Of a stretch of 37,481 bases of DNA, positions 2,332-31,876 are shown in pieces (within the stretch, counting starts at the first letter, position 1; every line of letters starts with the position of its first letter). The stretch is from Oscillospiraceae bacterium (lineage in GTDB: Bacteria > Bacillota > Clostridia > Oscillospirales > Oscillospiraceae). Location: positions 1 through 37,481 of the forward strand of contig JAFWTG010000130.1 in assembly GCA_017519005.1 (NCBI GenBank). The letters run 5' to 3'. Under the pieces are notes generated by a model that saw only the letters and a list, made by a program, of their open reading frames with translations, ran no database searches and was not told where the DNA came from. The translations under genes and the position numbers were made by a program.

Positions 2332-2676
2332 ATGCACGAAATGGGAATCGTCCTCCATCTGGCCAAGACTCTGGATCAGACCGCGGAGGAACACAAGCTT
2401 ACCGCCATCGGCAAGGTCGTCTTGCAGGTGGGCGAGGTCTCGGGCATCATGACGGAGCTCTTCACCGACGCCTGGAACTATTTCAAGCTCCGGCATCCGG
2501 TGCTGAAGGACAGCGAGCTGGTGCTGGAGACCATCCCCGCCGTTACCTGGTGCGACAGCTGCAAGCAGCGCTACGAAACCGTGAAATACGGCAGAGAATG
2601 TCCCTACTGCCATTCCGGCGAGACCTGGCTGCTGCAGGGAAACGAATGCGTCATCAAGGAGATCGAGGCGGAGTAA
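2332..2676 (+). CDS. hypA: Hydrogenase nickel incorporation protein HypA
   Basis: HypA delivers nickel to the large subunit of NiFe hydrogenases, with HypB. The 114-residue length is normal. The protein begins MHEMG, giving the His2-Glu3 nickel-binding N terminus, and has a zinc site built from CDSC (about residue 68) and CPYC (about 88). It is downstream of the oxidoreductase in the same direction. No hypB or hydrogenase structural gene is visible, so these must lie elsewhere or upstream of the window. The gene ends at a strong hairpin terminator, and the minus-strand reading frame coming from 4.7 kb overlaps its last codons. Confidence 0.9.
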   Translation: MHEMGIVLHLAKTLDQTAEEHKLTAIGKVVLQVGEVSGIMTELFTDAWNYFKLRHPVLKDSELVLETIPAVTWCDSCKQRYETVKYGRECPYCHSGETWLLQGNECVIKEIEAE

Positions 2677-2678
2677 AC

Positions 2679-2718
2679 AAATACCGGCGCTTACGGCAAA
2701 CCGTTAGCGCCGGTATTT
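2679..2718. terminator. Bidirectional hairpin terminator after hypA
   Basis: The arms AAATACCGGCGCT and AGCGCCGGTATTT pair perfectly, with a further ACGG/CCGT inner pair and a CAAA tip. It starts 2 bp after the hypA stop codon. Confidence 0.8.
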
Positions 2719-2827
2719 CCTTTCGGCCGCTCCCCGTTTCCGCAGAGCCTCCCCTGCACGCAGGGGAGGAGGACCGCGAAGCTGTGGAGGGGTTCTCCTC
2801 CGATGCTCTGCGCCGCCGTACCCCGTT

Positions 2828-2865
2828 GTCATTCTGAGCGGAGCGCAGCGGAGTCGAAGAATCCG
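2828..2865 (+). repeat. Interspersed 38-bp repeat, copy 1
   Basis: A full copy beginning GTCATTCTGAGCGGAGCG and ending GAAGAATCCG. It is identical over 38 bp to the copy at 2981-3018. Confidence 0.85.
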
Positions 2866-2876
2866 TTCCCCCTTCC

Positions 2877-2899
2877 GTAGGGACGGCGCTCTGCCGCCC
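2877..2899 (+). repeat. REP-like hairpin with GTAG foot (imperfect)
   Basis: GTAG is followed by GGACGGC and GCCGCCC arms with one mismatch and a short loop. Confidence 0.4.
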
Positions 2900-2909
2900 G
2901 CGTTCCTCC

Positions 2910-2932
2910 GTAGGGGCGCTCATTGAGCGCCC
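2910..2932 (+). repeat. REP-like hairpin with GTAG foot and 3-nt loop
   Basis: GTAG (2910-2913) is followed by GGGCGCTC, loop ATT and GAGCGCCC, a perfect 8-bp stem. Another perfect 3-nt-loop hairpin, GCCGGCA-ATC-TGCCGGC, lies at 2951-2967 without the foot. Confidence 0.6.
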
Positions 2933-2980
2933 GCCGTTCCCCTCTGCAGCGCCGGCAATCTGCCGGCCATCCCCCGTCTT

Positions 2981-3018
2981 GTCATTCTGAGCGGAGCGCA
3001 GCGGAGTCGAAGAATCCG
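2981..3018 (+). repeat. Interspersed 38-bp repeat, copy 2
   Basis: Identical to 2828-2865. Read on the minus strand it supplies codons (SSTPLRSAQND) to the truncated polyvalent protein frame. Confidence 0.85.
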
Positions 3019-4894
3019 TCTCCCCCGTCTCCTTCCCGATCCAATCCACGCCCCAGGAATCGTCCGCGTCCTCGGATGGCGAGAACCGAATATCCCGGTT
3101 CTTCCATGCCTCCTCGCCGCTCCGATCCGTCCGGAAGCGCTCCGAAATCGGGATTACATTTTCATTCTCGTCATAGGTCACCGGCTCCGCGCTCTTGACC
3201 TGCTCGGAGTTTCTGATGATGTAGGAGACGCCCCGGCTCACAGGCCCGTCCTCGGTCAGGTCTCCGCCCTCGTCCAGCACAACGCCGTCGAAGTCCAGTC
3301 CGTTCTCCTCGATGAAGTCGCTGATGTCGTACCCGTCCGTCCAGTCCGGGAGCCCGTTCTCCTGGAGCTCAGAAAGGCCGTACTCCGCACGCATCTGCTC
3401 GAAGATCTCCCGGCACTCTGGCCGCCTTGTATCAAACATCCGCTCCGACTTCACATAGACGTGGTACAGGGAATCCGGATTGTCCCGCTCCATGTAGCGC
3501 TCCGCGTAGGCCTTGTTTGGCGTGAAGTATTGCCAGTCCTTGAATACCGTGAACCCGCCGCCCTTCTTGGAGCCGTGGTAGAGCTCCATATCATACCCGG
3601 CCCTTTCAGCCGCTGTTTTTACCATTTGCTTGATGGCTCTTCTATTTCCCTTAGCGAGGTATCTATTATACTCTTGATCGTTATAATCATTCGTATCTTT
3701 GACTGTGGCAGCGATGGATTCCCACTTTATTCTCTTTTGCTCGGCCGAAAGCAGCCCGTCCGGCAGATATTTTATTATTCCTTCATGCTTGACAAGTGAA
3801 GCAAGGCGTGATATATTGACAGTAGAAGCTGAGCGAGCGGCAGCATGCCCAGATTGTATCTGGTCTGGTGCCGTTAAGACCTCAGCTTTGTTTATTTGCT
3901 CGTTGCAAATCAAAACATATAGCGTTGCTTTGCCTCGATTATCTATCTTTGCTCCGAAGCGAACCGGGATAAAGTAGTCTCCATCAATATAGCCTCCAAG
4001 CATATTTGCAAAGAAGACCGTATTGTAGTCTGACAGATAACGATTTACGTGTACCTCAATCCCTACGGCGTTTTTTACAGCTTCTTCCAATACTGGCATA
4101 ATTCGCACCAGCATTGTTTTGTTGGTTATCTTTTTGCTTGCGCTTTCCGTGAACGTACCTTTTGACACTTCGAGCCTCAGCGATAGATCGTCGTTAACGA
4201 CTGATTGAGGAAGACCAATCTGATCTACAGCGGATTTTAATGCAGCTTTGACGAGCGACGCTTTCCTGCTGTTCAAATCGGTTGCTTTTTCAGAAATAAT
4301 ATCATCTGCCTGACCTCTATAGACGGCAGCTTCAAAGCTTCCCTTTTCAAGAAGGATCGCCGCCCTCTCCTCTTCAGTTTGACCCTCCATGATTTTGACG
4401 GGATTCGTCTCATTGCTCAGCCGCGTCCCCGGCCCGTTCCTCCGCTCGATCCCCGCCCGGTTCTGCCGGGCGTTTTCAATGTCCCCGGCAAAGCGCTGGG
4501 CCACGTCGCCGGCGGTCTCGACGGCCTGCCTGGCGCTGGCGCTGCTGCGTTTCATGCCGGCGTACTGATCCGCGAAGATCCCTTCGATGTACAGCATGGC
4601 AAGCTCCCGCTGCGCGTCCTCGTCCATGCCCTCGGTGTAGACGCCGCAGCAGCCGTCCAGTGGGGCACCTTTTTGAGCATGACCCACCGCGCAGAAGCGG
4701 CAGTCGCTTTTGGCGGCTGCCGCTTCCTCAGTCTGTCAAAGAACCGATAAAAGCTACACGGGAGCGTCTGGCGTGAATCACAGGGTACAGGCATCAGGAT
4801 ACCGGGAACAAGGTTCGATTTCCCTGCGGCAAATTGCGTTCGTTCCGAATGCCGGACGATCCGAAAGCCCTCTCTGCATAGTTCAGCGCAGCAG

Positions 4895-14861: not shown

Positions 14862-15268
14862 TATGAGGTCTGTTTCCGGAACGTTCGGCAGATCAGCCCC
14901 GCGAAGACCGCGCAGAGCACGGCGCCGATCCCCATCCAAAGCGGGCGGCAGCCGTATTCGCTCAGAAGCAGGCCGATCACCGCCGTGGGAACGCCGAGAA
15001 TGCCGCCCAGGGTCAGAGCGCCAAAGCCCCGCAGCAGGCGACGCCGGGGCAGTACCCGATCCAGCCTTGCGATCCGCTCGCTGACCAACTCTGCAACACC
15101 GATCAGCATCAGAATGGCCGGGATCAGCGCCAGAATAGCAAATACCGTAACGCGTTCTTTCAGACAAAGGACCGTGCATACGATCCATGTGATCCACCCG
15201 GCGTTTCCCGGCAGATCGTATGCGATCCAGCGGGCAGTTGAAATGTCGGATTCATAGAGCTCGTTCAC
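14858..15268 (-). CDS. Small integral membrane protein, stop codon supplied by the MITE
   Basis: This protein of about 136 residues has roughly four hydrophobic segments (near residues 25-40, 42-62, 85-105, 108-128) separated by an Arg-rich loop (RIARLDRVLPRRRLL). It starts at GTG 15268 with GGGAGA upstream and overlaps the end of the preceding methyltransferase by 17 bp. Its last codons KQTSY are followed by TGA formed by the first bases of the inserted element, so the native C terminus may have been a little longer. Function not recognised. Confidence 0.65.
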   Translation of the reverse strand: MNELYESDISTARWIAYDLPGNAGWITWIVCTVLCLKERVTVFAILALIPAILMLIGVAELVSERIARLDRVLPRRRLLRGFGALTLGGILGVPTAVIGLLLSEYGCRPLWMGIGAVLCAVFAGLICRTFRKQTSY

Positions 15269-16070
15269 GTTCTCCCGCCTTTCGTTCGCATTCCGCGTAC
15301 ATCAGGGTGATCCGCGCGGCCATTTCCCGGCTATAGGTGACCCGCCAGCCGTGCGCTTCCAGAAATTGCAGGTATTCCTGCCCCGTCCACTGATGCTCGA
15401 ATTTGACGCCGGCCAGGCGCAGGACGCCGGACCAGAGCCTGCTGATCCAGGTGCCCTTGTGCTCCACGAAGTTCGGGGCGATCAGCAGCCCGCCCGGCCG
15501 CAGCACCCGGTCGATTTCCGAGAGCACCTGCTCCGGTTCCGGGACGATATGCAGGGCGTTGGCAATCAGAACCGCGTCGAAGCTGTCGCTCTGATAGGGC
15601 AGATTCATGGCGTCGGCAATCTCAAAGCTCAGGTTCTCCGGGCAGCCGCCCTTTTTTGCCTGCGCGATCATGCCTTCGGAGTAGTCCGTGGCGATCATCC
15701 GCTTTGCCGCCGGGGCCACTTGCTTTGCCAGCAGGCCCGGCCCCGTGGCGATCTCCAGGACCTCCTTGTCCCGGACCAGCTCCGGGATACGGTCGTACAT
15801 GAATTCATAGATCTTGTGATCCGCCTGCATCGCCCGCTTATACTAATATTTGATTAAAATGTTAGAAACATTTTAATCCGGCATCCACTTTTTTGTGGAT
15901 GCCGCCCTGGGCAAAGCCCAGGGAAATATGCCGTACAATATCTATTTTTGCAAATCCGTATGGATTTGCCAACCGCGGCACCGCCGCGGTTGATGAAACG
16001 GTTGTTAACCGTTTCATCAAGAAATAGTATTATAGATCGGCGCGTACAGGTCCCAGATTTTCTTCCTCAA
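15252..16070 (-). pseudogene. SAM-dependent methyltransferase gene interrupted by a 187-bp hairpin element
   Basis: The 3' part (15252-15842) encodes a class I methyltransferase with VLEIATGPGLLAKQV (motif I), NALHIVPEPEQVLSEI and RVLRPGGLLIAPN. The 5' part begins at a TTG (16068-16070), 5 bp after the previous stop, with GGGAGG upstream, and reads RKKIWDLYAPIY. It then runs into the hairpin element and stops. TATAA occurs at both borders. Removing the element and one TATAA joins WDLYAPIY directly to KRAMQADHKIY in frame, giving a normal 208-residue protein of the WDxYAPxY family. An internal ATG at 15830 could give a 192-residue form lacking the N-terminal helix. Substrate unknown; it is part of the methyltransferase operon. 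Confidence 0.85.
15843..16029. mobile_element. 187-bp non-autonomous element of six hairpins with 5-bp target duplication
   Basis: It is flanked by TTATA at 15838-15842 and 16030-16034. Hairpins: ATTAAAATGTT-aga (15853-15877), CGGCATCCAC-tttttt (15879-15904), CCCTGGGC-aaa (15905-15923), spacer 15924-15949, GCAAATCC-gtat (15950-15969), CAACCGCGGC-acc (15970-15992) and TGATGAAACGGTT-gtt (15991-16019). All stems listed are perfect. No coding sequence. The 3 + spacer + 3 plan is shared with 4895-5033. Confidence 0.85.
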
Positions 16071-16075
16071 CTGCG

Positions 16076-16852
16076 TCAGTCCTCCCGCAAAACCCGCGTC
16101 GCTTCCGCGTAAAACCGCTCCGGGAACATCAGCAACAGCTCTGCGTGGGCCAGGCCCTTGAACTCCCGGGCAGCCGTCTGCGGATACGCCTTTCGGGTAT
16201 AGGCCAGATCATTCTTTCTGGCCCGCTTCTCTTCCTCACCATACCAGTATTCGATCCGGGTGTCAACGCTCCGGACCGGATTCGGCATGGAATAATTGTT
16301 GGCGGACCAGAAGACGTTATAGATGGTCTTGGGGGAAAAATGATGCTTCTCAAAGTCAAAAATCTTTTTGTAATGGGTCTCCGGGTCTTCATCCTTGGGC
16401 GTCCAGCGCTCCGGCGGCATGGCCAGCTTCATGACGATCATGGATTTTGTGGCCAGCATCACCGTGAGCCAATCCCAGTAAGAGATCAGCCGGCAAATGA
16501 AGCGGGGGTAGGGGTAGGGCGTGATGCCGGCGTCGATGATAGCCATCTCCACAGGAATATCCTCCGTCGCCAGAAAGCGGATCACACTGGCGCCGCCCAT
16601 GGAAACGCCGTACATGGCGTCCAAACGAGAAACGCCTTTCCCGCGCAGCCAGTCTGCCGCTTCCTCCACATACGTTTCGATGGAGAGAAAGGTCGTACCC
16701 TGCTCGTCGTGGCCGTCTGCGATAAACAGATAAACGTGGTAATCTCGCGCCATTTCCTTTGCCGACGCCTCAAAAACCCACCAGGGCTCCGCCGCGCATT
16801 GGAACATGGCGAAGGTCCTCTCGTTTTCGATGCCGAATTCATAGACCTTCAT
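16076..16852 (-). CDS. Alpha/beta hydrolase
   Basis: This 258-residue cytosolic protein has the nucleophile elbow YGVSMGGAS (Ser at about residue 100), a middle cap region with PYPYPRF, RIEYWYGEEE before the acid strand, and GLAHAELLLMFP with the catalytic His. It is likely an esterase or lipase-like enzyme; the substrate is unknown. It starts at 16852, where ATGA overlaps the end of the upstream methyltransferase, and the interrupted methyltransferase starts 5 bp after its stop. The set looks like a tailoring operon for one small molecule (inference). Confidence 0.82.
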   Translation of the reverse strand: MKVYEFGIENERTFAMFQCAAEPWWVFEASAKEMARDYHVYLFIADGHDEQGTTFLSIETYVEEAADWLRGKGVSRLDAMYGVSMGGASVIRFLATEDIPVEMAIIDAGITPYPYPRFICRLISYWDWLTVMLATKSMIVMKLAMPPERWTPKDEDPETHYKKIFDFEKHHFSPKTIYNVFWSANNYSMPNPVRSVDTRIEYWYGEEEKRARKNDLAYTRKAYPQTAAREFKGLAHAELLLMFPERFYAEATRVLRED

Positions 16853-31320: not shown

Positions 31321-31876
31321 GCCCAAGGCTTGGCTTACTGTACCCAGCTGTTCAAGCTTGAGGAGCAGTGGAAGGATATGACGCCGGAGGAACGGCAGAA
31401 GAAGCGGTCGGAGCAGGCAAAGCCTGTTCTGGACGCGATCTTGGCATGGTCAAAAACGAGGACCGCCGCGCCGAAGTCGAAGCTGGGCATTGCTTTGAAC
31501 TACCTCAAGAACCAGTGGCCCACGCTGACGACCTATCTGCAGGACGGCCGCATTGAGCTCAGCAATAACCGCGCCGAGCGCAGCATTAAGCCCTTTGTAA
31601 TCTCCCGCAAAAACTTTCTGTTTGCCAATACCACAAACGGTGCCCAGAGCTGTGCAGTCCTGTTCAGCCTGATTGAGACGGCAAAGGAAAACCATCTTGA
31701 TCCGTGTCGCTATCTCACCTGGGTTCTGAAGGAAGCACCGAAACGCAGTGCTTCTGATCCGAATTGGGCGCAGACGCTGACCCCACAAAACACCCCGCCG
31801 GATTGCCGCTAAACCGAATCTTGTCCGTGGAGCCTGCCAAGCGCAGGCTCCTTTTCTACGCTCATTTGACGCTTAC
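31321..31876 (+). mobile_element. IS66-family insertion sequence, 3' remnant
   Basis: The frame 31330-31812 (about 160 residues) encodes the end of an IS66 transposase. It includes SKLGIALNYLKNQWPTL and the catalytic-Glu region ELSNNRAERSIKPFVISRKNF, then ANTTNGAQSCAV and the C-terminal element LDPCRYLTWVL. The DDE Asp residues and the helper genes upstream are missing, so it cannot move alone. The right end is probably at about 31876, where GTAAGCGTCAAATGAGCG reads inward on the minus strand, as in IS66 terminal repeats. A hairpin (31831-31852) follows the stop. Confidence 0.85.

Follow-up and report, generated by a model that had tools for sequence, protein, structure and literature searches.

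A probable MITE-like element with a predicted double-cloverleaf fold interrupts a methyltransferase gene in an Oscillospiraceae bacterium

Bacterial MITEs such as RUP, Correia/NEMIS and QMITE are, in the passages of two overviews that describe them, about 100-200 bp long, lack a transposase, carry terminal inverted repeats, duplicate their target, fold stably and insert into transposase genes (PMC2229807, PMC10969869); the element described here is like them in all these respects. The IS1031 subgroup of IS5 prefers TNA targets and produces a 3-bp duplication, according to the parts of PMC12016507 that treat it, and the element has this duplication as well. A third likeness is offered by the CIR repeats of Caulobacter and Brucella, which consist of two arms and a linker, show a conserved RNA fold, and were not found intragenically, which we also count as a likeness; in the passages of PMC2229807 devoted to them, the mechanism of their mobility is unsettled.

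The window, i.e. the whole stretch of DNA that was analysed, is the 37,481-nt contig JAFWTG010000130.1 of an Oscillospiraceae genome (GCA_017519005.1). The pentamer TTATA occurs at 15838-15842 and again at 16030-16034, and six hairpins with loops of 3-6 nt lie between the two repeats. An earlier, sequence-only reading had proposed a 187-bp element here; the flanks and the six hairpins are present as it described, whereas comparison with other copies places the bounds of the whole element at 15841-16029, which gives 189 bp (Table 1). Stems in the annotated fold of the window copy are 8-12 bp long. In line with the same reading, which saw no gene inside, the open-frame listing contains no frame of at least 80 aa within the element.

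Table 1. Coordinates of the element, its predicted structural parts and the interrupted gene in the window.
Feature	Position	Strand	Remark
TTA, left copy of the target duplication (3 bp)	15838..15840		
Whole element, 189 bp, TACTAATATTT ... AAATAGTA	15841..16029	+	matched at exactly these bounds by the covariance model, which had this copy among its building sequences
Left terminal inverted repeat	15841..15851	+	
Closing stem A, 5' half	15846..15851	+	within the left terminal inverted repeat
Hairpin 1 (12-bp stem, 3-nt loop)	15852..15878		extends the terminal repeat
Hairpin 2 (10-bp stem, 6-nt loop)	15879..15904		
Hairpin 3 (8-bp stem, 3-nt loop)	15905..15923		
Closing stem A, 3' half (AAATAT)	15924..15929		able to pair with the left end
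Conserved linker GCCGTACAATAT	15930..15941	+	right part similar to an internal TNA + TACT end
Closing stem B, 5' half (CTATTT)	15942..15947		
Hairpin 4 (8-bp stem, 4-nt loop)	15950..15969		
Hairpin 5 (9-bp stem, 3-nt loop)	15971..15991		
Hairpin 6 (12-bp stem, 3-nt loop)	15992..16018		extends the right terminal repeat
Right terminal inverted repeat AAATAGTA	16022..16029	+	
Closing stem B, 3' half	16022..16027	+	within the right terminal inverted repeat
TTA, right copy of the target duplication (3 bp)	16030..16032		
Methyltransferase gene, downstream part	15252..15837	-	open frame from ATG 15830 retains the methyltransferase domain
Methyltransferase gene, upstream part, TTG start, LRKKIWDLYAPIY	16033..16070	-	

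Each translated alone, the two pieces of the gene that flank the element read LRKKIWDLYAPIY and YKRAMQADHKIY, and the downstream part matches Methyltransf_11 at E 3e-23. When genome contigs were scanned with the downstream protein, 37 loci emerged, of which the best 30 (L121-L150) were compared; these are 54-79% identical in their best segment, and the other seven (L151-L157) are 29-39% identical. The frame runs continuously through the insertion point (WDxxAPxY onward) in 30/30 of these best homologues, which match both separately translated window pieces. This bears out the earlier claims that the element is an insertion and that the pieces on either side read as one gene. Homologues within the genus are only distant (at most 38% identity over most of their length), the exception being a 36-residue match with 94% identity in G004, and the examples without an interruption therefore belong to other genera and phyla. 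Stop codons occur inside the element in all three minus-strand frames, and the first 13 codons are therefore cut off from the rest of the gene. Translation could restart at the internal ATG, which would lose the conserved WDLYAPIY segment. The window copy would have landed at codons 13-14 and broken the gene.

The full element sequence occurs once in its own genome. A search for copies there and in relatives nevertheless uncovered a family, with many members in the relatives: 21 of 99 genomes, the own one included, matched at E 0.01, in several cases over a short length, and the nearest copy is 94% identical to that of the window. One genome of the same genus (G013) carries the element in at least 21 distinct places and a weak one (C130, E 0.008), a count based on the 40 of 48 candidates that were scored, and many of these places match only in part; G022 has four copies. 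Full copies measure 183-196 bp, and internally deleted forms of 49-157 bp retain recognisable ends. Within the family, the covariance model matched 14 of 400 genomes (the own one among them), which belong to 9 of 106 genera; across the order it matched 5 of 394, again with the own one, the rest being in four other families. Six genera of the family have the full layout (g1, g12, g34, g77, g85 and g115), g86 has shorter variants, and g120 a partial model match; among the loci, L221 and L222 are shorter variants, and L223 fits the model in part. The layout is also found in two other families (G500 and G658), with different hairpin sequences and TTA on both sides, while six copies in G453, from another family, have recognisable hairpin sequences and no clear duplication. 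The matches in g5 (L220) and at the order level (L257, weak) have other ends. Both L220:1501-1698 and L257:1501-1697 are six-hairpin double-cloverleaf elements, and they possibly represent a separate family of the same shape. The element had no match in the plasmid and phage collections, and viral contigs yielded one exact end match.

Two groups with similar ends, both found by the end pattern alone, were excluded as members. One consists of elements of about 160 bp in the genus of the window, with the same ends and a different interior; this second family has TACTAATATTTGA ends and TNA flanks (L003, L034, L013, L015 and L023), and its two places in the own genome, on contigs C58 (L003) and C89 (L034), are both truncated at contig ends. 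The other consists of long single palindromes, in genus g21 and elsewhere. L187, L190, L198, L199 and L207, from other genera and with nearly the same ends, fold as one long imperfect palindrome, not as a double cloverleaf. As a separate observation on repeats in the window, the minus-strand reading frame at 2654-4687 contains the peptide SSTPLRSAQND twice, which may be a dispersed repeat read in frame.

The ends of the element are imperfectly inverted, TACT...AGTA. Placement was tried at 33 loci and gave both ends in 25, with L007 added and L038 re-placed by hand and L046, L047, L050, L051, L009, L026 and L010 dropped. The set of 44 copies with both ends placed uses 18 of 25 distant loci; the right end was shifted by 1-3 bases by hand in five, L217, L219, L228, L232, L220 and L237 were left out, and L213 is the same place as L186. 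Identical 3-bp flanks are present in 27 of the 44, and 17 lack a perfect duplication. Both flanks read TNA in 33 copies, and the middle base agrees in 27 of these, versus 16.1 expected (0/20000 permutations); the end-finding patterns are fuzzy and contain TNA, so that TNA itself is partly built in, whereas the middle-base agreement is not. The matched triplets include TTA, TGA and TAA. In the window the duplication is TTA, a 3-bp TNA duplication rather than the 5-bp TATAA duplication suggested earlier. The longer TTATA repeat is a coincidence: the element starts with TA, and in the window TA also happens to follow the right triplet, which is the case in 11/44 copies. Such 3-bp duplications at many unrelated sites agree with the earlier view that the insertion moves as a unit. 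We must also note that the 17 imperfect duplications and the six G453 copies without one count against a MITE-like reading.

The sequence-only reading had described little more than a run of hairpins. The hairpins are indeed there; in addition, short end-to-linker stems in the predicted folds group the six of them three and three. The layout is, in order, a TACT end, a stem closing three hairpins, a linker whose consensus is close to GCCGTGCAATACT, a stem closing three further hairpins, and an AGTA end. It is kept in the six genera and the two further families, with hairpin sequences that mostly differ outside the genus of the window. In the plus-strand fold, the bases immediately inside the left end have their partners directly in front of the linker, and the right end is paired with those that directly follow it. 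In the RNA fold of the minus strand, each end is paired with the other and not with the linker, which counts against this arrangement; the closing stems would thus compete with an end-to-end stem, since that fold joins both ends directly. In its right half, the linker is similar to TNA followed by an internal TACT end, and the element may for that reason have descended from two fused units.

In an alignment of 19 copies, picked by length and given the structure of the window copy, which favours paired cells, 85.9% of the cells were paired and 24 of 71 pairs had changed on both sides; 0/500 shuffles reached any of the five measures. With slid partners, pairing was no more than 35-45%, and the covariation score was 0.045-0.089 instead of 0.142. 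Nevertheless, 13-21 pairs still changed on both sides in the slid controls, compared with 24, and within the genus alignment each closing stem had only one of six pairs changed on both sides; both results count against the layout. Closing stem A was also placed by the end and the linker only, in 32 of 39 copies of at least 160 bp (L260, L036, L039, L008, L007, L255 and L040 were dropped, their automatic linker match being misplaced or doubtful). On average 5.5 of its 6 positions were paired, versus 4.06 with shuffled partners (0/10000), and 5.25/6 versus 3.72 in 20 non-redundant copies (0/20000). The halves lie about 70 nt apart, and their sequences vary, e.g. ATATTT/AAATAT, TTCGCC/GGCGAA and GTTCCT/AGGAAC. 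Loops change much faster than stems: when the window copy is compared with L004, L005 and L006, its three nearest relatives, the differences amount to 36%, 59% and 41%, respectively, of 22 loop columns, 1.4%, 0.7% and 9.9% of 142 stem columns, and 8%, 12% and 4% of 25 other unpaired columns.

In 14/44 copies, a flanking open frame has the target triplet as its stop codon, compared with 79/1108 in the background (odds ratio 6.1, p 3e-6), under a rule with non-overlapping frames and a background of non-coding TNA sites only. By a looser rule, a frame of at least 100 codons ending exactly at the triplet, the count is 17/44 versus 293/3733 for all TNA sites of these flanks (binomial p 1e-8), with 14 right and 3 left in orientation. 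This set of 44 differs from the duplication set in lacking L212 and L222, including L254 and L256, and having L213 in place of L186. Frames were called mechanically without annotation, and a few have a spurious-looking composition (L042 in both counts, L053 and L221 in the looser only); the excess is therefore no proof, but a strong lead. Part of it may come from selection against insertions within genes, although the non-coding background already omits coding sites. For the copy in the window no stop codon is involved, which counts against the pattern. If real, landing precisely on stop codons would let a mobile element spare its host in an elegant manner.

A transposase flanked by matching ends was sought at 38 PF01609 loci and none was found, which counts against a MITE-like reading; the 24 genus and 13 copy-rich genomes screened are incomplete. 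Of these loci, 22 came from the genus genomes, own included, and 18 from the copy-rich ones, with L159 and L176 in both; the end pattern was applied to the first 22, and a weight matrix for the ends to all 38. Four (L239, L240, L251 and L253) exceeded 15 bits by the matrix and were rejected as partners. In L239 and L240, a copy of the element directly precedes the coding frame of an IS1182 transposase. The L240 copy (633-825) lies between TAA repeats just before that frame and has an internal duplication; L239, from another genus, lacks the duplication and holds part of the element at its own positions 1-126, the contig end falling inside the element. Around a shared anchor at the right end of the element, the two loci agree over 59 bases before and 1469 after, with 2 mismatches including the break. 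The element may thus travel inside another transposon, because two genera hold most of the IS1182 combination almost identically, and a copy nested in this way fits the earlier proposal of movement as a unit. In L251 (~230-270) and L253 (~620-640), the end of an IS5-type transposon adjoins the left end sequence of the element itself, with CTAA on the element side of each junction; these are two contigs of one genome, and the junctions pieced from them may represent two events. Separately, the plus-strand open frame at 31330-31812 of the window resembles the C-terminal part of an IS66-type transposase.

We consider the element to be probably a MITE-like, non-autonomous DNA transposon whose constrained feature is its shape. 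It is short, carries no gene, has terminal inverted repeats and shows a constant 3-bp TNA duplication; its TNA target triplet is that of IS1031/IS5, and the transposase that moves it is probably of the IS5/IS1031 type. Such an enzyme would act in trans. In DNA that is single-stranded or extruded as a cruciform, the two cloverleaves would bring both ends to the central linker, which itself resembles a fused pair of ends, and docking there would favour end pairing and cutting. Insertion in a TAA stop codon would regenerate the stop and spare the host gene. A wider and less likely proposal, which we put forward tentatively, is that this is a class of mobile DNA inheriting shape and not sequence, in which the double cloverleaf, folded from single-stranded or cruciform DNA, would be the transposition substrate, the ends would dock on a central linker of fused ends, and insertion would be directed to stop codons, which would keep the host gene intact.

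It is possible, though unlikely, that the element is instead a mobile structured RNA, which would be transcribed at the 3' end of host genes and act in the mRNA as a stabiliser, terminator or RNase III site, or whose own promoters would drive a neighbour, and which would be kept in the population in this way. The RNA of Neisseria NEMIS was proposed to act via RNase III, as mentioned in a passage of PMC2229807. The stop-codon excess with its mostly single orientation and the stem covariation would suit such a role, and so would the very stable RNA fold of both strands: -97 kcal/mol for the minus strand, versus -43.7 in shuffles (z -13.1; 0/200 as good), and z -12.1 for the plus strand (0/200). 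The fold of the element as DNA gave z -14.9 (0/200). By consensus matches only, four promoter-like sites were found in the 701-base region around the element, versus 0.6 in shuffles, and three lie within or across it (window 15870-16033), one reading outward over the right end. However, both terminator-like sites near the element are outside it, no Rfam family matched, and the orientation bias may stem from the asymmetric TTA/TAA target. Selection on one RNA strand should make G-T mismatches in stems exceed A-C ones, as A-C is G-U on the other strand, whereas the ratio is 67:61 in the 19 genus copies and 19:31 in 18 distant ones, whose rows were aligned to the model, lean towards its structure and include L220, excluded as a member. 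The lack of a G-T excess speaks against a one-stranded RNA function, or an intron, and suggests a constraint on DNA complementarity, either through selection on DNA folding or through template-switch correction.

That second route leads to a further reading, which we regard as rather improbable: an ordinary MITE with palindromic filler, the hairpins of which would be perfect because template switching homogenises their arms, without any function. Template switching can homogenise the arms of inverted repeats and maintain hairpins, as stated in sections of PMC8794818 and PMC8604942, and stem conservation could arise by such correction without selection. The symmetric mismatch classes are in keeping with this, as is a paired GC -> CG change in the nearest copy. 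Template switching alone nevertheless leaves unexplained the order of the hairpins, the conserved linker and the closing stems, kept across genera with halves about 70 nt apart.

Removal at the RNA level, raised by the sequence-only reading, would make the element intron-like and leave the methyltransferase functional, and we find it very improbable. The two flanking pieces do jointly read like uninterrupted relatives, but any clean transposon insertion gives the same reading, G-T and A-C mismatches are about equally frequent, with no strand-specific RNA constraint, and splicing would gain nothing at the stop codons where the mechanical test places 14/44 copies. Rfam holds families of group I and II introns. 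No match to a group I or II catalytic core, expected of a self-splicing intron or IStron, was obtained, and Rfam 15 returned 0 matches of any kind over the window at the gathering score, and none within 15800-16080 at E values of up to 1. An assembly artefact or a native part of the gene is scarcely credible even in an assembly fragmented into 141 contigs, as related copies lie at different sites in many genomes and the element is absent from 30/30 homologous genes (the best 30 of 37 loci), so that this explanation is already refuted for the element family.

In the MITE-like reading that we prefer, what seemed an oddity in one gene is a mobile unit whose ends, target and architecture are defined and which is present in several bacterial families. 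Since its shape is kept through sequence turnover and lacks an RNA-type G-U excess, the selection of transposons for DNA folding becomes testable. The conserved double-cloverleaf layout and the stop-codon excess exceed the descriptions that we found in the literature. No such element appeared in the titles and abstract openings covered, subscription papers being mostly outside that scope, and the term "cloverleaf" is absent from both overviews of bacterial MITEs (PMC2229807, PMC10969869). Together with the Rfam result, this supports the earlier statement that no named element has such a structure.

Compared with the known systems, the REP/BIME palindromes are alike in being extragenic hairpin clusters. 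To our knowledge, they make no TNA duplication. Tyrosine transposases are associated with them, according to the parts of PMC2817692 that deal with the subject, unlike the IS5-type enzyme proposed here. The IS1031 example treated in PMC12016507 is, in the part that describes it, autonomous and 857 bp long, and its 17-bp ends, GAACCTGTCTAGTATCT, differ from the element's TACTAATATTTGAT. In the CIR repeats, each arm takes the form of a long inverted repeat, and one loop bears a GANTC motif (relevant passage of PMC2229807), whereas an arm of the element is a unit of three hairpins. RUP, Correia/NEMIS and QMITE form long stem-loops closed by their own ends in the passages that describe them (PMC2229807, PMC10969869). 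The ends of the present element, in contrast, are also able to pair with its middle, each enclosing three hairpins, and, unlike in those MITEs, this layout persists while the sequence turns over.
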